Shown here: in pieces, positions 29,755 through 38,549 of the stretch
How positions within the stretch are numbered: the first letter of the stretch is position 1
How the letters are laid out: each line of letters begins with the position of its first letter
From: Clostridiales bacterium
Lineage (GTDB): Bacteria; Bacillota; Clostridia; Lachnospirales; Lachnospiraceae
Direction of reading: 5' to 3'
NCBI GenBank assembly: GCA_021202925.1
Contig: JAJQCD010000021.1
Location: forward strand, 1 to 38,549
Length of the DNA: 38,549 nucleotides
Program-made: the position numbers and the translations under genes
Notes under the pieces: generated by a model
The model's input: the letters and a program-made list of their open reading frames with translations, nothing else
Database searches by the model: none
Told to the model about the DNA's origin: nothing

Positions 29755-29786
29755 CGAAAAAGGAATCTGCCGGTTACAGACTCCTT
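29755..29786 (-). terminator. Intrinsic terminator after the VanZ-like gene
   Basis: Minus-strand hairpin with 10-base arms (29786-29777 and 29769-29760, one G-U pair) followed by a T-run. It overlaps the last codons of the VanZ-like gene and lies 35 bases before the glmS start, separating the RiPP-side operon from glmS. Confidence 0.78.
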
Positions 29787-30316
29787 CTGTTCGAAAAATA
29801 TTCTCTTCTGTACGATTCCCATAACCGCAACGCTGCACTGCCTGCCATCGCTCCAAACATGCATCCCAGTCCATTGTGCAGCATGTCGTCCCACTCGAAT
29901 AACCCACGGCAGGTCACGAGCTGCAGCGTCTCAATCGCAGCCGACCAGATGAGACCAACCAGAAAAGCGGCTTTTGGTCTGATTTGATAAAGGATTGAAA
30001 GGCAGAAACCCACCGGTATAAACAGGAGCAGATTCAGGACGATTTCCATGAACAGGGAGCGATTGTGATTGACCATCACCTCGTACCACGACCAGAATGG
30101 CGCCCATTCGGCTTTGGGCGCTGCAGCCGTCCTGCGAAAGATCAGGGTGGTAAAGAAAATAGCAGCGCCATAAGTAATAAAGATTGACTGCAGCACCGCT
30201 CGCATGGCTGTTTCTTTCTGTCCGGTTTGCACACTTTTCTTCTTTTCCCACCAAAAACACAGTCCAAACGAAAGGAAAATAATGAGAAAAAGAAGAGGCC
30301 ATGTGTAAACAGGCAA
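29774..30316 (-). CDS. VanZ-like membrane protein
   Basis: A 180-residue integral membrane protein with about five spans and VanZ family motifs (NLLLFIPVGFCLSIL, ETLQLVTCRGLFEWDDMLHNGLGCMFG). VanZ proteins are linked to teicoplanin resistance and are common, poorly understood neighbours of envelope and peptide-export genes. The reading frame begins with TTG at 30316 without a clear ribosome binding site; other non-ATG starts just upstream are possible. It lies 44 bases after the radical SAM maturase and is probably the last gene of that operon. Whether it belongs functionally to the RiPP locus (for example self-protection) is unknown. Confidence 0.78.
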   Translation of the reverse strand: MPVYTWPLLFLIIFLSFGLCFWWEKKKSVQTGQKETAMRAVLQSIFITYGAAIFFTTLIFRRTAAAPKAEWAPFWSWYEVMVNHNRSLFMEIVLNLLLFIPVGFCLSILYQIRPKAAFLVGLIWSAAIETLQLVTCRGLFEWDDMLHNGLGCMFGAMAGSAALRLWESYRREYFSNRRSL

Positions 30317-30360: not shown

Positions 30361-31509
30361 TCACTTCTTAGCAGCGATTTTCCTCAGTTCCCTTACCCTG
30401 TATTCCGTCATGCGGCACATATACTCCGGGCGTCCGGCTGTACTCCCCGTTTCTGTCATACATACAGCGGGACAAACCTGGCATAGGTTCTGCAAGTCAC
30501 ACGCGATGCAGGCCTGGCACTGCGGTATTTTCTGACAGGCATCTACCATAAAATCCCAGCATTCCCTGAAGGAATGTTCCAGGAGACTGATTCTGGGTTC
30601 CAAAAACATGCCACAGGGTAATAATTCCCCTCTCCAGTTCATGTTGAACACACTTCGGCCGGCACGACATGGAAAACCCGTCCTGCCCTTCAGTTTTGGT
30701 GCATTCCTCAGCTTGGCAAGGGTCTCTCTGGCTGTCTGCGGACTGGTTACCGGCTGACAGCCATGTACTTCGGCCTCCGCTGCCTGCTCTGCCGCCAGCC
30801 GGTACTGCTCCTGGCTTGTAATACCCCTTCGAAGACCGGGGAACATATAGGTTGCCACAGACAGAGGCACATCAAAGGCTTCCGCGATTTGATAAAGTTC
30901 AGGTAACTGATCGATATTATCCGGCGTCAGGCTGCAATCAAAGACAAAAGGAATTCCCCGCTCCTTTAACAGGCCTGCCGCCCGCATCACCTGCGTAAAC
31001 CCGTCCGCATTCCCGCAAAGTGCAGCATAGGTGGCGTTATCCTTTCCATAGAGAGTGATATAGATTCGCTGGACGCCATTTTCCGAAAAGAAATCCGCCC
31101 ACTCCTCATCAAGCAGAGTACCGTTGGTTTTTACCTCCAGAACCACTCCCATCTGCGAAATTTCCGTATACAGGCGCTTCAACTCCGGATAAAGCAGGAC
31201 TTCCCCGCCGGTAAGCGTCAGAAACAGCAGACCTTCTTCGCAGGCCTCTTTCACAATCGAAAGCCATTCCTCGCAGGTAAGCATTCTGCCCTGGGCATCC
31301 ATCTCCTCCTTTGACATGTGGACATAACACATCCGGCAGTTCATATTGCACAGAGGTAACAGTTCGATCACTCCCATGACCGGCGTACAGGTTACATCTG
31401 CTTCCCGAAGGATCATCGTTTCCGCTGTTTCTGTTGTCTCATGTGACCTCATAATCGTCCTCCTGATGGCATCCTGTTCCTGCTCTGACATCCGACTTCT
31501 CCACTTCAT
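30361..31509 (-). CDS. Radical SAM/SPASM peptide maturase
   Basis: A 382-residue radical SAM enzyme with the cluster motif CNMNCRMC (Cys54, 58, 61) and a C-terminal SPASM domain. Candidate SPASM cysteines are 281, 299, 331, 334, 337, 343, 346, 350 and 365 (CxxCxxC, then CxxCxxxC), enough for two auxiliary clusters. Enzymes of this type install thioether or carbon-carbon crosslinks in ribosomal peptides. The start ATG overlaps the stop of the exporter gene (ATGA); another ATG six codons on has a better GGAG spacing. Gene context (precursor, recognition element, peptidase-exporter) strongly supports a RiPP role. The exact crosslink cannot be read from sequence. Confidence 0.87.
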   Translation of the reverse strand: MKWRSRMSEQEQDAIRRTIMRSHETTETAETMILREADVTCTPVMGVIELLPLCNMNCRMCYVHMSKEEMDAQGRMLTCEEWLSIVKEACEEGLLFLTLTGGEVLLYPELKRLYTEISQMGVVLEVKTNGTLLDEEWADFFSENGVQRIYITLYGKDNATYAALCGNADGFTQVMRAAGLLKERGIPFVFDCSLTPDNIDQLPELYQIAEAFDVPLSVATYMFPGLRRGITSQEQYRLAAEQAAEAEVHGCQPVTSPQTARETLAKLRNAPKLKGRTGFPCRAGRSVFNMNWRGELLPCGMFLEPRISLLEHSFRECWDFMVDACQKIPQCQACIACDLQNLCQVCPAVCMTETGSTAGRPEYMCRMTEYRVRELRKIAAKK

Positions 31510-33650
31510 CCTGTCGATTCCCTTTCTCCCGGTTCCATGCTCTCCGCGCAGATCCGTTCGTGTTCAAACACCAGTCGTTTCCCACAGATCTGCAGTGCCG
31601 CCGGTCTGTGTGTCACAATCAGTACCGTCTGCTTCCCCAACTGTTTCAGATTCCGCAACAGCTGGCGCTCCGTCTCCTCATCGAGGGCAGAGGTGGCCTC
31701 ATCCAGCAACAGAATCGGCGCGTTACGGTAAATGGCCCGGGCAATCGCAAGGCGCTGAAGCTGCCCTTCCGAAAGGCCGACTCCCCTTTCTCCCAGTACG
31801 GTCTGATACCCCTTCGGCAGTTCCCGGATAAACGCATCCGCGCATGCAATCCGGCAAGCCTGTTTCACCCGTTCCTTCTGTGCCTGCGTATAAGGCGCCG
31901 CATGAAGGAAATCCACCGCCTCATAGATACTCTCGGACATCAGCATATTCCCCTGAGGGACATAGGAAAACCAGCCGCGCGTGGAGGCATCGATGTCAAT
32001 CGCCTGAGGCGCTTCGGACTCTTCCATCCCGGAACATGCCGCTTTTGCGTACAGCCGGCCGGAAACCGGCCGGTAGATTCCAAGTAACAGCTTCAACAAT
32101 GTACTTTTTCCGATTCCTGAGACGCCGGTCAGAGCGACCAGCTCTCCCTTCTGAATATCAAAGGAAGCGGCCCGGATGACTTCATCTTCTCCATCGTCAT
32201 AAATAAACGTAAGATTTCTCGCATGAAGCGATTGGAATTCCGGAAGTGCCTTCTGTGGCCGTTCATCCCTGGGAAGGCTCTCAATCTCCATCAGCCGTTC
32301 CGCTGACGCCAGCATGCTATAATACTGAGGCACGAGACCGGACATGTTGGCAAACGGTCCGCGAATCTGATTGATCAGCTGCAGCACCGCGGTCAGTGTC
32401 CCATACGTCAGCGTCCCCTGCAGGATACCGACGCAGCACCACACCAGGCCAAAGAGATAGCTCCCCTGCATGACCGCCCCAAAGCCAACATTACAAACGT
32501 TGGAAAAGGTTCTGCGCCGCATGCGCGCCTTTTTGTGTTCGTCGGCCCACTCTTTTGTCCGGTCGGAAGCCATCTGCTCCGCCTGAAAACTCTTGACAAG
32601 CAAAAGATTCTCCACAGATTCCTGCATCCAGGAACGCAGTTTTCCGTCCTTCTCCTGTACTTCCTTGTGCAGGCTCTTCATCTTCCTCCGGAAAAGGAAG
32701 GTCACCCCCAGCATCACCAGTCCGCCAACCAGGAAAATGCTGGCAAAGCGCCAGTCCAGAGCCATCAGCACGAACAGGGCACAGACCAGTTGTACCAGCA
32801 TCGATACGATATCCGGGATCAGATCTGCGGCATTGCCAGCCACAATCCGTACATCACTGGTCAGCCGATTCTGCAGTTCTCCGGTATGAAAGGTTTTCAA
32901 TCCGCTATAGCGGCTGCGCAGAATGCTGTCATAGATTTGTGTTTTGATGCGGTTTTCCATGGAAGCCATAACGGCCTCATACAATTGCCGAAGAGCAGCG
33001 TTTAAACCAAGCGTCCCTGCCATCACGGCAAGAAAGACCGCTACCCAGCGCAGGAACGCATCCGGATTCCCGGCAACCGCAGAGTCAATCGCCCCCCGCA
33101 TGACCAATGCCAGCGCGACCGAAAGCATGGAAACAATGCCTTCGCAGAACGCGGTCAGAAGAATCCCTCGCAGAGATCCCTTCGCTTTCCGGATGACCCA
33201 GGCCAGGGACGTTTCCCCCAGAAGCCACCGCCCGACTCTTTTTACTCCCTGCTTTGCCCGATCCTTAAGCCATCGGAACGGATAAATCAAATTCCAGAAC
33301 CAGACATACAGACGGTAGCGAAGATCGGTCACCGAGATTTCACACTTCCTGCTCCATAACCGTTCCATCACGCCCTTCACCGCAGAAAGCGAAACCGGCT
33401 CCAGGCCAAAGGTATTGTCGCCCCGGATCAGACAGGTATCTCCTTCCACCCGGATCACCCGGTGAAGCACCAGTTCCCCGTCCGGTCTGGTATACAGCAC
33501 GACGTCATTTTTCTGCGGACGTTCCTGCAGACGCCGGATCAGGACCTGTGATTCATTTGTATACAGAAGCGGCTGCATGCTGACTCCCCTGGTCGTAATC
33601 ACAAGAAAACCTTCCCGCTCCAGTTCGGCCAGTATCTTCGTCTGTTCCAC
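31506..33650 (-). CDS. Fusion of SipW-like signal peptidase domain and ABC exporter
   Basis: A 714-residue fusion. Residues ~1-100 are an S24/S26-type serine peptidase fold: Ser24 in TRGVSMQP, then VVLYTR, and VLHRVIRVEGD with His63 where bacterial type I signal peptidases have Lys. This Ser-His pattern is that of SipW/eukaryote-type enzymes. The rest is a complete ABC half-exporter: six spans (about 155-430), Walker A GVSGIGKST, signature LSEGQLQR, Walker B ILLLDEATSALD and an H-loop (VTHRP). By analogy to C39-peptidase exporters, it probably cleaves the leader and exports the peptide. I start at the GTG at 33650 (GGGGGAGG 5 bases upstream); an ATG at 33665 is the alternative. Confidence 0.86.
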   Translation of the reverse strand: MEQTKILAELEREGFLVITTRGVSMQPLLYTNESQVLIRRLQERPQKNDVVLYTRPDGELVLHRVIRVEGDTCLIRGDNTFGLEPVSLSAVKGVMERLWSRKCEISVTDLRYRLYVWFWNLIYPFRWLKDRAKQGVKRVGRWLLGETSLAWVIRKAKGSLRGILLTAFCEGIVSMLSVALALVMRGAIDSAVAGNPDAFLRWVAVFLAVMAGTLGLNAALRQLYEAVMASMENRIKTQIYDSILRSRYSGLKTFHTGELQNRLTSDVRIVAGNAADLIPDIVSMLVQLVCALFVLMALDWRFASIFLVGGLVMLGVTFLFRRKMKSLHKEVQEKDGKLRSWMQESVENLLLVKSFQAEQMASDRTKEWADEHKKARMRRRTFSNVCNVGFGAVMQGSYLFGLVWCCVGILQGTLTYGTLTAVLQLINQIRGPFANMSGLVPQYYSMLASAERLMEIESLPRDERPQKALPEFQSLHARNLTFIYDDGEDEVIRAASFDIQKGELVALTGVSGIGKSTLLKLLLGIYRPVSGRLYAKAACSGMEESEAPQAIDIDASTRGWFSYVPQGNMLMSESIYEAVDFLHAAPYTQAQKERVKQACRIACADAFIRELPKGYQTVLGERGVGLSEGQLQRLAIARAIYRNAPILLLDEATSALDEETERQLLRNLKQLGKQTVLIVTHRPAALQICGKRLVFEHERICAESMEPGERESTG

Positions 33651-33700
33651 GCTGTCCTCCCCCATCAAAAGACTGAATGATCTGCAATCTCCATCATCGG

Positions 33701-33973
33701 CTATTCTTCTTCATCCAGGCACCCTGCCTCCCGCAGCGTATCCAGAAAAGCCTTTACATCCTGCGCTGCCTGCTCGCGGGTGACATCATATTCTGCTGCC
33801 AATCTATTCACAAGGTCCTCCTTCGAGATTCCCTGCAACAGGTAATCCCAGCAAAATGCGCCTGTATCATTCAGTTTTATCATTCCATTTAACGATTTGC
33901 TTGCCGGGCCAACTGCAACGACCACATATTTGCCCGCTACTTTTCTGAGAATAAAACCTTTTCTGATTTTCAT
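33701..33973 (-). CDS. PqqD-like RiPP recognition element
   Basis: A 90-residue stand-alone PqqD-family protein. It has N-terminal strands (MKIRKGFILRKVAGKYVVVAVG), the middle motif MIKLNDTGAFCWDYLLQG and a C-terminal helical part (EDLVNRLAAEYDVTREQAAQDV, then FLDTLREAGCL). Such proteins bind the precursor leader and hand it to the radical SAM enzyme. AAGGA lies 5 bases before the ATG; a longer upstream frame is rejected. It lies between the precursor and the exporter. A hairpin (8-base arms, GTGGGGAA/TTCCCCAC around 34030-34072) in the preceding gap may set expression relative to the precursor. Confidence 0.88.
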   Translation of the reverse strand: MKIRKGFILRKVAGKYVVVAVGPASKSLNGMIKLNDTGAFCWDYLLQGISKEDLVNRLAAEYDVTREQAAQDVKAFLDTLREAGCLDEEE

Positions 33974-34151
33974 GTAAATCCTTTCACTCGTTTCTTTTCT
34001 TTCCTGTTCCTTCATACATTTAAAGAGAATGTGGGGAAACAAAACGATAACATACCGCCCTGCTTCCCCACGGTCTTCAGGCACAACGATACCCAAAGCG
34101 ATCGGGCAGTCTCAGACAGACTTCCCTCCAGACACTGCGAGAAGCTTCTCC

Positions 34152-34310
34152 TCAATAGTCCAGACTGGTACTGTTCGTACCATAGTCATAGCTTTCGCCA
34201 TTGCCGGTCGGATGCGCGCACCCTTGTGGTTTATTCCAGTCCTTTGCTGTTACCACATAATCGTTATCGAAGTTCAGAACCTGTGCCAGGGGCGCCTGAT
34301 ACTTTTTCAT
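34152..34310 (-). CDS. Putative RiPP precursor peptide
   Basis: A 52-residue peptide with a strong GGAGGTGAT ribosome binding site. The first half (MKKYQAPLAQVLNFDNDYVV) resembles the leaders of short clostridial peptides ('YxxPxxxxxxF...D'). V-T-A at 20-22 would suit a signal-peptidase-type cut, leaving a 30-residue core from Lys23. That core contains one Trp (25), one Cys (31), one His and several Gly/Asn/Ser/Tyr, and ends TSLDY. Its own promoter, adjacency to a PqqD-like protein, peptidase-exporter and SPASM enzyme, and the leader-core layout support the call. Crosslink sites are unknown; W-N-K at 25-27 and Cys31 are candidates. Confidence 0.78.
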   Translation of the reverse strand: MKKYQAPLAQVLNFDNDYVVTAKDWNKPQGCAHPTGNGESYDYGTNSTSLDY

Positions 34311-34332
34311 GTTTATCACCTCCTCACTGATA

Positions 34333-34373
34333 CAGTATCCATACTGTGTGGATACCATAAAATATTTATTATA
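34333..34373 (-). promoter_or_regulatory. Promoter and palindrome upstream of the precursor
   Basis: A consensus minus-strand -10 TATAAT (34373-34368) lies ~60 bases before the precursor start; the -35 is poor, hinting at activation. Just downstream, overlapping palindromes (GTATCCA/TGGATAC at 34335-34341 and 34349-34355; CAGTAT/ATACTG at 34333-34346) could be an operator or leader hairpin. Confidence 0.55.
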
Positions 34374-34458
34374 CACAAAATCCAAGATGACGAATTTCCA
34401 TCGCCCCTGTCTTTTGCGATAATCCAGATCATCTGTTATTCCATCCTGCCAGGAATTC

Positions 34459-34532
34459 TCTGCTCCTGCATTCCTTCGCAGGCAATTCGCGCAGCCTGCA
34501 GCGATTGATCGCAATGAATCTGCCAGACCGGT
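34459..34532 (-). pseudogene. C-terminal scrap of a second HPr-kinase-like gene
   Basis: Seventy-four bases that match the 3' end of the kinase gene (36511-36584) at 69 positions; all five differences are transitions. The frame still reads WQIHCDQSLQAARIA and then EGMQEQ. It directly follows a copy of the nucleotidyltransferase leader, so the body of a duplicated nucleotidyltransferase-kinase unit has been deleted. Confidence 0.85.
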
Positions 34533-34536
34533 TTCC

Positions 34537-34595
34537 GTCCTTATGCTTTGTTAAGATTTGCAGCACGAAAATAAGAGCCTGTTTCAGGCTCTTAC
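34537..34595 (-). repeat. Direct repeat: terminator plus leader, copy 2
   Basis: Fifty-nine bases matching 38491-38549 with four mismatches. It comprises the terminator hairpin and the leader with the AAGGAC ribosome binding site of the nucleotidyltransferase gene, but here the gene itself is absent. Confidence 0.88.
34568..34594 (-). terminator. Intrinsic terminator downstream of the AAA/PD-(D/E)XK gene
   Basis: Minus-strand hairpin with arms AAGAGCCTG/CAGGCTCTT and a three-base loop, followed by ATTTT. It ends the upstream transcription unit and insulates the precursor promoter. Confidence 0.82.
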
Positions 34596-34709: not shown

Positions 34710-36404
34710 TTACTCATCCGCCTGTTCACGCAGAACTCTGCAGTTCTTTCCGCTGAACGCAATTCCATATTCCTCTATTCTGGATACCTGAAAACCCAGG
34801 AAATATTCACTGTAATCCATGTTCCTGATCTGTTGGCAGGCTTCTTCTGCTTTAGACTGAAGTTTTTTTCTGTCATCGGTATGTTTCACTTCGATAATGA
34901 TACCTTTGTTTTCCAGACGATTGATAATGATGATGTCCGCCCTGCCTTTTCCGGCCTCTCGATTCGACTTCACCAACCAACCGGGGCGTCCCTTCGCCAT
35001 ACCGATCAACAGCATATGGTAGCTGGCTTCCTTTTGTTCTTCGGTATTGCCGCCATCCATAAAGCTGATGGATTCTTTCAGACAGGAATTGATGCAGTTT
35101 TCAATCTTTTCTGCCTTACTGTCATCGAATGCCTTATAGAGATCCGACAGGCCGCCCTCTATTTTTCTCAGGAACCATTTCTGTACTTGTTCCCCGAATA
35201 CATGGCGTATTTCGCGGTTAGGGATGGCCAGGCGATATGTCCCGTCTGGGTTCCGTCCACGCTGTGTCAGGTATCCAGTGGTAAATAAAACACTCCAGAG
35301 GTTGTCAATTTCACTGTATATGTCTTTATAGGTAAGCTCGAAAGAGAGCGGTTTATCTACGGTTTTTCCTTCGGAAAGGACTTCCAGGTCATAGCGGGTG
35401 TTGTCGCTTCCCATTTCTATAAAACGATAGACGGTATCGTTTTCACTCATATTTGCCCAGTAGTTTTTGGGTTCCCGGTCTGACGATGCCAAAAGCTGGC
35501 GGCACCAGTTGATCACATCCCATGGACAGTATATGTCGGTGATTCCGATGCGATAACCGTCATACCAGTCTTTCGTGATTTCATAATACTGGCCCAGATC
35601 ATAATCCTCCAGAAGTCTTTGCACTTCCTGATCTGTAAATCCAAACCATTCATCACATACTTCATCGACTAATGTATACATCGTTGGGTTATTTAAATCA
35701 GAGAAGAGACTTTCTTTGGAAACCCGCATGCAGCCTGTCAGGACGCCAAAATACAGAGCTTCATTTGATTTTAACGCATATCCGAAAATCTGGCGGATCA
35801 AAAGAACCATCTGCCTGTAATAATCGTTTTCAAAGGCTTTCTGAAGCGGTGCGTCATATTCGTCAATCAGGATAATGATTTTTTTCCCATAGTGTTTGTA
35901 AAGCAGGTTTGAAAGATGAAATAAGCTGCTGTCTATCAGGCTTTTCCCATTTTTTATATCATGAAAATAATTTTTATCATCATCATCCAGTCTGTCGCTG
36001 TTCGCCAGAAATGAAAAACGTCTGGCCTCCGTTTTGATCACATCCCATATGTTGGCCTCCGCTTTTTCGTATGAGACTCCATTCACCTGCTTCAGCGATA
36101 TGGAAATCACCGGGAACTGTCCCATATATTGTTCACACAATTCCGTTTCTTTTGAGATTTCCAGGCCATCGAAAAGACTTTTGTCTGTCCCGATCTCAAA
36201 GAATCTCTGAAGCATACTGATGTTTATGCTTTTTCCGAAACGGCGCGGCCGTGTGAAGAGATTCACTTCACCCCAGCTGTTCAGTAACTCTTTTATCATT
36301 CCGGTCTTATCTATATAGTAGAAATCATTTGTGCGGATTTTTGCAAAATCATCAATGCCTATCGGCATTCTTTTTTTTTCAGACACCTGCTCACCCCGTT
36401 CCAT
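34710..36404 (-). CDS. AAA-ATPase-like / PD-(D/E)XK nuclease-like protein
   Basis: A 564-residue protein of a family abundant in gut anaerobes. The N-terminal AAA-like domain (PF09820 type, about 10-240) has LPIG-like MPIGIDDFAKI, YIDKTGMI, the P-loop TRPRRFGKS and Walker B IILIDEYDAP. The C-terminal PD-(D/E)XK domain (PF08011 type, about 430-560) has GRADIIIINRLENKGIIIEVK with the catalytic D...ExK. These genes spread horizontally and have no firmly known function; mobile-element or defence roles have been suggested. It lies between the kinase and the precursor and appears unrelated to peptide maturation. The ATG at 36404 is used; a GTG six codons later with GGGGTGA upstream is also plausible. 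Confidence 0.85.
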   Translation of the reverse strand: MERGEQVSEKKRMPIGIDDFAKIRTNDFYYIDKTGMIKELLNSWGEVNLFTRPRRFGKSINISMLQRFFEIGTDKSLFDGLEISKETELCEQYMGQFPVISISLKQVNGVSYEKAEANIWDVIKTEARRFSFLANSDRLDDDDKNYFHDIKNGKSLIDSSLFHLSNLLYKHYGKKIIILIDEYDAPLQKAFENDYYRQMVLLIRQIFGYALKSNEALYFGVLTGCMRVSKESLFSDLNNPTMYTLVDEVCDEWFGFTDQEVQRLLEDYDLGQYYEITKDWYDGYRIGITDIYCPWDVINWCRQLLASSDREPKNYWANMSENDTVYRFIEMGSDNTRYDLEVLSEGKTVDKPLSFELTYKDIYSEIDNLWSVLFTTGYLTQRGRNPDGTYRLAIPNREIRHVFGEQVQKWFLRKIEGGLSDLYKAFDDSKAEKIENCINSCLKESISFMDGGNTEEQKEASYHMLLIGMAKGRPGWLVKSNREAGKGRADIIIINRLENKGIIIEVKHTDDRKKLQSKAEEACQQIRNMDYSEYFLGFQVSRIEEYGIAFSGKNCRVLREQADE

Positions 36405-36484: not shown

Positions 36485-37237
36485 TCACGAACTAATCAAA
36501 TCAGAAATTTTCTGCTCCTGCATTCCTTCGTAAGCAATTCGTGCAGCCTGCAACGATTGATCACAATGAATCTGCCAGACCGGTATCCGCTCTACGATTC
36601 GTTCCCACATGGTCATCATGGAATCCAGGTTCTCCCAGGACAACATCCGGTGATTCTGATTGGTTCGCATCATCTGCGAAAATGCCATCGCCGGATCCAT
36701 ACGGGTAATATAATTCACTTCGCTGTGATCCAGAAAACCGATTCCCCTTAAAGGAATCTGCGTATTCACCTGATATCCTTCTGATCCGCCAAACGGCGTA
36801 CCACAAATATAACAGCCTCCATTCATAAAACGAATGATGGGGTTATCTCCATTAATAATTCTGGCCCGGGAACCAAAATAATCGAGCCAGAGTTGCGCCT
36901 GCGTCGTTTTTCCGTATCCGCTGGGCGCCGTGAACGCATACCCCACACCATCTACCTCCACCGCGCAGGCATGCATCCAGGCTGCGTCAAACTCAGGTAG
37001 TTGCGGGTATATCGTTCCATGAAGTGCCGAAAACTCAATTTTACCTATACTTGAATATGGATCCAATTCGTCTTCCTGATAAAGCAGAATCAACGGTTCC
37101 AGAATCTCATCTGTTGTCTTTACCCGGATATCCGGTTCCCGATCCGGCTTTACCACATAATCCCTGCAGCGCTTCTCTATCTCGTCATATCGGTTGTCAA
37201 TCTCGACCAAAAGGCCGGCTATTTCAATACAAAACAT
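36485..37237 (-). CDS. HPr-kinase-like P-loop protein (putative RiPP tailoring kinase)
   Basis: A 250-residue protein with an HprK/PEP-carboxykinase-like core. Walker A is APSGYGKTT (104-112), followed by ARIINGDNPIIRF (a nucleotide/metal loop near 125-137), CGTPFGGSEG and the C-terminal IPVWQIHCDQSLQAARIAYE. Homologues sit in RiPP clusters; in the paeninodin lasso peptide cluster such a kinase phosphorylates the precursor. The ATG at 37237 has AGGAG 6 bases upstream; a longer frame is rejected. It follows the nucleotidyltransferase by 22 bases. The C-terminal 74 bases are duplicated near the precursor gene. The substrate here is unknown; Ser/Thr/Tyr residues at the precursor C-terminus are candidates. 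Confidence 0.82.
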   Translation of the reverse strand: MFCIEIAGLLVEIDNRYDEIEKRCRDYVVKPDREPDIRVKTTDEILEPLILLYQEDELDPYSSIGKIEFSALHGTIYPQLPEFDAAWMHACAVEVDGVGYAFTAPSGYGKTTQAQLWLDYFGSRARIINGDNPIIRFMNGGCYICGTPFGGSEGYQVNTQIPLRGIGFLDHSEVNYITRMDPAMAFSQMMRTNQNHRMLSWENLDSMMTMWERIVERIPVWQIHCDQSLQAARIAYEGMQEQKISDLISS

Positions 37238-38483: not shown

Positions 38484-38490
38484 CCGTTCT

Positions 38491-38549
38491 GTCCTTATGC
38501 TCTGTTATGATTTGAAGCACTAAAATAAGAGCCTGTTTCAGGCTCTTAC
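38491..38549 (-). repeat. Direct repeat: terminator plus leader, copy 1
   Basis: Same 59-base sequence as 34537-34595 with four mismatches. The hairpin at 38526-38548 with T-run at 38525-38522 terminates whatever gene lies beyond the window edge, and the following bases form the leader of the nucleotidyltransferase gene. The repeat may extend past the edge. Confidence 0.88.

Follow-up and report, generated by a model that had tools for sequence, protein, structure and literature searches.

The contig JAJQCD010000021.1, a stretch of 38,549 bases that was analysed in its entirety and is called the window below, belongs to the 3.17-Mb genome of a Clostridiales bacterium of the Lachnospiraceae and carries on its minus strand a locus for a ribosomally synthesized and post-translationally modified peptide (RiPP). 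This locus is probably a hybrid operon, in which a leader, protease and export module of the type found in the linear polyphosphorylated peptide (LPP) system of Paenibacillus alginolyticus is joined to a radical S-adenosylmethionine (SAM) maturase of another branch, one belonging to loci that contain a SPASM enzyme (SPASM-linked loci). Sequence comparison assigns the leader, protease, exporter and kinase to the LPP type and the maturase to a different, SPASM-linked branch.

In the order of transcription, the genes encode a nucleoside triphosphate (NTP) transferase, an HprK-like kinase, an AAA-ATPase_like/PDDEXK_9 protein, a precursor peptide, a RiPP recognition element (RRE), a fusion of a peptidase to an ATP-binding cassette (ABC) exporter, a radical SAM/SPASM enzyme and a VanZ-like protein (Table 1); all of the reading frames are open. 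The original prediction described a compact locus of four leftward genes, from precursor to SPASM enzyme. These are all found in that order at 30361-34310 on the minus strand, and the ATGA overlap it reported is formed by the stop codon of the fusion and the start codon of the maturase, which share 31506-31509. There is good support for its identification of the locus as one for a RiPP that is exported. The four genes are not self-contained, and the upstream kinase and NTP transferase are part of the locus, separated from the precursor by a multicopy AAA-ATPase gene, a scar and a terminator. At the thresholds used, no second maturase, RRE, kinase or leader was found elsewhere in the genome; the RRE search gave one further match (E 0.28), which contains a stop.

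Leader, protease and exporter

The precursor open reading frame (ORF) is real, above chance. It has a full Shine-Dalgarno sequence (AGGAGGTGAT), carries YQAP at residues 4-7 and, should cleavage follow Thr21, would have the core AKDWNKPQGCAHPTGNGESYDYGTNSTSLDY. Scanned against NCBIfam and Pfam it falls into no family, and seven precursors of related loci gave matches only at the level of chance. A profile of 18 leaders from which that of the window was excluded, searched through the six-frame translation of the whole genome, returned a single match at E<=5, namely the precursor (E 0.0088); because a leader-only profile built without it finds the precursor alone genome-wide, the leader is assigned to the LPP kind. 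Two further profiles, likewise built without the leader of the window, separate the two kinds of loci: that of 17 leaders from loci without a SPASM gene (SPASM-less loci) scores it at 13.3 bits, equalled by none of 2000 shuffles, and that of 20 SPASM-linked leaders at 3.2 bits, equalled by 40 of 2000. A profile of 82 leaders, gathered with 25 seeds that did include the leader of the window, ranks the precursor first among the ORFs of the window (E 0.0019; next 1) and gives it 12.8 bits versus 8.8 for the best shuffle, so that it beats 1000 of 1000. Weaker candidates did not enter the hand-picked leader sets; L115 and L123 each lost one in this way and L120 lost three, and for L197, L213 and L214 it was the weak ones that were omitted. 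Simple searches with the precursor across 397 genomes of the family matched eight at E<=0.1, the genome itself and seven weak cases (E 0.007-0.08), two of which contain stops.

The PqqD-like label given to the RRE in the original prediction is firm. That of S26 for the protease domain has fared less evenly: Pfam does not see S26 in the window protein, and the profile of its family matches signal peptidases in the PDB, including SEC11A (2.7e-4), SEC11C (4.2e-4) and bacterial enzymes, at modest E-values. Eight of 18 family members match Peptidase_S24 of Pfam. The Ser, His and Gly-Asp of the protease are invariant in all 18 aligned members, and the Ser is retained in each of the 10 rows of a second set that reach it. 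The spacing of 39 between Ser and His equals that of S29 and H68 in LppS, and the domain is predicted to be compact and beta-rich (pLDDT, the predicted local distance difference test, 87.3). As start codon of the fusion, GTG 33650, preceded by the Shine-Dalgarno sequence GGGGGAGG, is more likely than TTG 33668 or ATG 33665.

As a single ORF the fusion was seen in four of the 397 family genomes (its own, G130, G198 and G324) and, in a class-wide sample of 391 genomes, in its own and G198 only. In G324 it lies at the end of a contig and spans residues 5-621; for G130 one TGA is counted in the match, though the ORF has 704 residues. G238 and G666 match the fusion over its full length, yet as separate genes. 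G130, G198 and G324 all lie outside the 43 family genomes, the present one included, that contain a match to the maturase (E<=1e-40).

The exporter itself has matches in 27 of the 397 family genomes (E<=1e-90) and 38 of the 391 class-wide genomes (E<=1e-110), its own counted in both. Among 46 loci chosen by exporter (45 distinct), 26 have exporter, S26 protein and RRE together, and of these 23 also have a kinase and 12 an NTP transferase; the exporter stands alone in 12 of the 46. A SPASM gene lies within 6 kb in just one (L141), in a separate cassette. The 17 precursors picked from exporter loci are 34-61 residues long. LPP-type cassettes with precursors of 34-52 residues were also seen in other families of the class (L195, L198, L200, L201 and L212); in the LPP paper it is genomes of Bacilli to which the RREs are mapped (PMC13381572).

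Trees of the exporter, S26 domain, kinase, RRE and NTP transferase were built with FastTree. The exporter groups with those of L098, L099 and L100, so that in this four-row set all three others are SPASM-less (support 100), as are all 21 others in a 22-row set (support 100). The S26 domain groups with the same three loci (support 100), though the two trees are not independent, because in the window both belong to one protein.

The radical SAM maturase

A quick tree places the maturase with that of L031, then with L032 and L033, then with L045 (support 98, 98 and 97), at 58, 52, 48 and 39% identity, respectively. All four of these adjoin precursors of 125-149 residues, the three closest standing beside peptides of 138, 149 and 125 residues with 3-4 Cys. 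In GC content the maturase gene (52%) is not set apart from that of the exporter (55%). Named genome contigs yielded 55 maturase loci, the final 11 being weak. One contig of a metagenome-assembled genome labelled Bacteroidales (L034, DGVD01000018.1) carries two maturases of this mostly Bacillota family, reflecting either transfer or a binning error.

The description of a SPASM enzyme in the original prediction stands for its first half, radical SAM being firm (PF04055, 1.3e-22), and is qualified for its second, since the Pfam SPASM model is unmatched. That model matches only two of 11 relatives, but all 11 aligned maturases (two of 13 rows having been dropped) keep the seven C-terminal Cys, whose arrangement is SPASM-like. 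The enzyme falls below the cut-off of every model among the 25 best NCBIfam matches listed, including StsB (49.8 against 625), PapB (49.1 against 340) and SkfB (47.1 against 300).

These results bear on whether the product resembles a sactipeptide or ranthipeptide, with a thioether on its single Cys. A SPASM enzyme, one Cys in the core and SkfB as the best sequence match in the PDB (8.4e-15) all speak for such a product; we nevertheless regard it as unlikely, with the StsB, PapB and SkfB models scoring so far below their cut-offs and the match to SkfB confined to the radical SAM core.

Some features of the C termini of precursors in SPASM loci may be recorded here. In those of up to 112 residues (such as L057, L025 and L070), a C-x-[HN] motif occurs within the last 25 residues in 15 of 25 (shuffled mean 2.4, maximum 7), as against 0 of 39 longer ones, and is a possible modification site. 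Those of more than 112 residues (such as L003, L004 and L045) have His within the last 22 residues in 36 of 39 (shuffled mean 22.5, maximum 29). The idea that the core of the window precursor retains either a C-terminal module or the C-x-[HN]-P motif from precursors longer than itself was rejected, as 751, 900 and 930 of 2000 shuffles scored equally well.

Kinase, serine sites and upstream region

The His, Lys and Asp of the kinase are conserved in all 15 members of its family, and it matches ScmC of NCBIfam at 1.2e-4. Where such a kinase might act was considered by comparing positions of Ser. PadeK phosphorylates a C-terminal Ser (PMC9266682) and LppK the core Ser3 (PMC13381572). A table of 74 distinct precursors was assembled (merged by the last 30 residues, E<0.02; same-strand neighbours no more than 3.5 kb away), and 56 of them, with that of the window counted in the total, end in Ser. 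Where both maturase and kinase are nearby the fraction is 33/39, rising to 38/39 for Ser in the final two residues, the precursor of the window, which ends LDY, being the sole exception. It is 13/18 with a maturase and no detected kinase, 9/11 with neither detected, and 1/6 with a kinase and no maturase; that one precursor has 99 residues, a length by which it belongs to L065, where the SPASM gene is ~5 kb away. Among control cassette proteins 14 of 377 end in Ser. The 33 of 39 (L002-L074, L154-L172) suggest a likely C-terminal phospho-acceptor, and with it phosphorylation at this position, across a family of which we found no description. Within the open-licence literature, most subscription papers falling outside this scope, the LPP paper was the one work on the gene set, and no report was found that pairs radical SAM peptides with phosphorylation.

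The precursor of the window departs from both patterns. Ser occurs within residues 19-30 in 16 of 17 short SPASM-less precursors (matches down to E 0.03; three or four lie at least 2.5 kb from the cassette), and the window precursor has none there; its Ser residues are at 40, 47 and 49. With no C-terminal Ser and none at residues 19-30, it lacks acceptors of the PadeK and LppK types. If cut after Thr21 its core would begin A-K-D, compared with A-Q-S in LppA, and by this analogy the Asp might stand in for phosphoserine. Because Ser is missing from leader boundary and C terminus alike, the two upstream enzymes, kinase and NTP transferase, may have little or no effect on this precursor.

The 52-residue peptide is a poor candidate for an ordinary LPP-type precursor that the kinase phosphorylates, with the maturase marginal or serving another precursor. 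The LPP character of leader, exporter, protease and kinase would fit that proposal, as would the long precursors served by the nearest maturases. Both expected acceptor sites are absent, however, the genome offers no second leader, and the maturase gene overlaps that of the exporter, so that we consider it improbable.

Upstream of the precursor, the -10 element and palindrome noted in the original prediction are present, the latter as the dyad GTATCC...GGATAC (Table 1). A consensus scan found no promoter with a -35 partner at the precursor, and the folding of the dyad as RNA is matched by shuffled sequences (z -0.87; 37 of 200 as good). The hairpin between precursor and RRE is a possible attenuator, and a terminator sits between kinase and precursor. 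The scar consists of two copied segments, with 91% identity to the 3' end of the kinase gene over 88 nt and 92% to the sequence before the NTP transferase gene over 63 nt, terminator included; the related places are 34450-34595, 36502-36589 and 38487-38549, and when the genome was searched at the DNA level with the scar region these three alone were returned. The scar would represent a duplicate of the NTP transferase and kinase genes from which the middle has been deleted. The contig terminates at the upstream copy of the repeat, 66 nt beyond the last gene, that of the NTP transferase.

The AAA-ATPase gene has 21 matches in the genome, nine of them at >=50% identity, itself included in both counts. 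This number makes it unlikely to be a pathway member, and it is probably an insertion that lies outside the pathway. Genes of the same kind were also seen near several SPASM loci.

A decaying cluster, in which rearrangement left a truncated or fused precursor, a cut-off kinase and no active product, would account for the scar, the AAA-ATPase gene within the cluster and a core unlike its relatives, and the end of the contig at a repeat, beyond which a further part of the cluster may be missing, counts in its favour, but it is improbable given open frames, the conserved residues kept in protease, kinase and maturase, and the intact Shine-Dalgarno sequence, TATAAT and post-precursor hairpin.

Table 1. 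Positions of genes and signals in and around the locus, numbered along the window
Feature	Position	Strand	Remarks
VanZ-like gene, downstream of maturase	29774..30316	-	PF04892, 2e-16; questionable operon member
Radical SAM/SPASM maturase, 382 aa	30361..31509	-	CxxxCxxC and seven conserved C-terminal Cys; single copy
S26-like Ser-His protease and ABC exporter fusion	31506..33650	-	PF00664, PF00005; protease domain ~33266-33650
PqqD-type RRE, 90 aa	33701..33973	-	PF05402, 5.7e-20; only clear one in genome
Strong hairpin, precursor-RRE gap	34031..34071	-	-30 kcal/mol, z -5.6
Precursor, 52 aa	34152..34310	-	Putative leader ~residues 1-21/22 with YQAP (YxxP)
Precursor promoter region	34315..34373	-	TATAAT 34373-34368; dyad 34355-34335; Shine-Dalgarno 34324-34315
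Scar upstream of precursor	34450..34595	-	88-nt copy of kinase 3' end abutting 63-nt copy of pre-NTP-transferase region
Terminator hairpin 5' of precursor	34572..34594	-	-16.7 kcal/mol, z -4.1; second copy 38526-38548
AAA-ATPase_like/PDDEXK_9 gene	34710..36404	-	21 genome matches, itself included
HprK-like kinase, 262 aa	36485..37273	-	Only kinase-profile match in genome; 14-nt overlap with NTP transferase gene
NTP transferase, 407 aa	37260..38483	-	PF14907, 8.8e-44

Proposed pathway and comparison with known systems

Several observations weigh against a hybrid operon. The HprK-like label is a tentative one, drawn from motifs and weak profile matches: none of the 15 members of the kinase family matches HPr kinase models at E<=0.01, and the kinase of the window itself matches Pfam at 0.049 and its best PDB entry at 0.016. 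Its tree is mixed, the set in which it falls (support 95) combining 15 SPASM-less rows, one of them the nearest, with five SPASM-linked ones; the RRE tree gives no supported set and that of the NTP transferase a mixed set of five rows, neither being decisive. The leaders in the sets were chosen by hand. A second genome with the hybrid was found in neither the family nor the class sample, and the genus-mate G172 gave no match in the family-genome searches. Finally, nothing like the core was seen in any other precursor or in any group tested, so that membership of the operon alone ties it to the maturase. The original prediction had named a short peptide that is not conserved, beside a maturase that is, as an outcome that would count against it; what was found lies halfway, the leader being conserved, and the core and the precursors of the nearest maturases being different.

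On the hybrid reading, the RRE would bind the YQAP leader and the radical SAM/SPASM enzyme would alter the core of ~30 residues, with a crosslink or some other C-H modification as the likeliest change, an expectation that comes from the enzyme family only. The N-terminal Ser-His domain of the fusion, aided by the RRE, would then cut the leader near residues 21/22 (Val-Val-Thr/Ala or Val-Thr-Ala/Lys), and the ABC part would export the product. As these are one protein, cutting and export would be carried out together, as in C39 transporters and by an unrelated protease.

A more far-reaching account is offered tentatively, and we would sooner doubt than assert it: that an LPP-type cassette exchanged phosphorylation for radical SAM chemistry, that at the corresponding position of the core the acceptor Ser is now an Asp, which perhaps replaces the phosphate required by LppS if it is to cut efficiently, that cutting and export became fused, and that a broad, undescribed family of Bacillota SPASM peptides ends in a Ser phosphorylated by HprK-like kinases. 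If the hybrid reading is right, leader, RRE, protease and exporter would form a portable module to which nature has added two or more chemistries, those of the kinase and of radical SAM, the question of which part sets the choice of substrate would become directly testable, and a one-protein tool for cutting and export, built on a Ser-His protease, would be at hand. The pattern of C-terminal Ser in related loci would connect radical SAM peptides with phosphorylation.

Several known systems share parts of this gene set. The SPASM-linked Bacillota loci (such as L031, L032, L033 and L045) have the same maturase clade, an RRE, a kinase and related leaders, and differ in their precursors of 125-149 residues, with 3-4 Cys and mostly a C-terminal Ser, and in an exporter and protease of another clade, the protease being unfused in the loci seen. 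The lasso peptides paeninodin and pseudomycoidin (PadeK, PsmK, PsmN; PMC9266682) likewise have an HprK-like kinase, a nucleotidyltransferase and a PqqD-type RRE, whereas no macrolactam cyclase or B2 cysteine protease was found among the eight locus proteins scanned. In the SynChlorMet cassette (ScmC-F of NCBIfam) HprK-like, PqqD-like and SPASM proteins also occur together, but the locus matches these models far below cut-off (ScmC 21.6 against 125, ScmD 20.6 against 100, ScmE 61.1 against 400). From sactipeptides and ranthipeptides it is set apart by a maturase that scores below the cut-off of every curated model among the 25 best listed; its core has a single Cys.

C39 peptidase-containing ABC transporters have a leader peptidase at the N terminus of the exporter (PMC10885120), as here, where the peptidase is a Ser-His relative of signal peptidases with no C39 match in Pfam at E up to 0.1. 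S26 and signal peptidases receive no mention in the available text of that review of RiPP proteases (PMC10885120), and the LPP paper describes SpI-like peptidases as new to RiPPs (PMC13381572).

It is the LPP system, lppAKBSDN, reported in 2026 and with homologues characterised experimentally (PMC13381572), that provides the closest parallel to the leader-handling half. The suggestion of a new class in the original prediction must be tempered by this published relative, while a precursor that fits no curated family and a maturase below the cut-offs of the 25 best models listed speak for it. In LPP, the YxxP leader is the ligand of LppB, which also assists the SipW-like Ser-His protease LppS in cutting (PMC13381572). 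In the available text of that paper all six passages with the word 'fused' concern tags or assays, and 'Radical' is absent from its main text (PMC13381572). Common to both systems are a discrete PqqD-type RRE, a YxxP leader in a short precursor, a SipW-like Ser-His leader peptidase, here fused to the exporter, an NTP transferase, an MsbA-like exporter and, with the weakness of its label, an HprK-like kinase. The differences are the peptidase-exporter fusion and the added radical SAM/SPASM gene, the kinase set apart by insertion and terminator, and a core whose predicted A-K-D start, at the putative cleavage site, lacks the phosphorylated Ser3 of LPP. The presence of the SPASM gene argues against a linear, primarily phosphate-modified product such as that of LPP.

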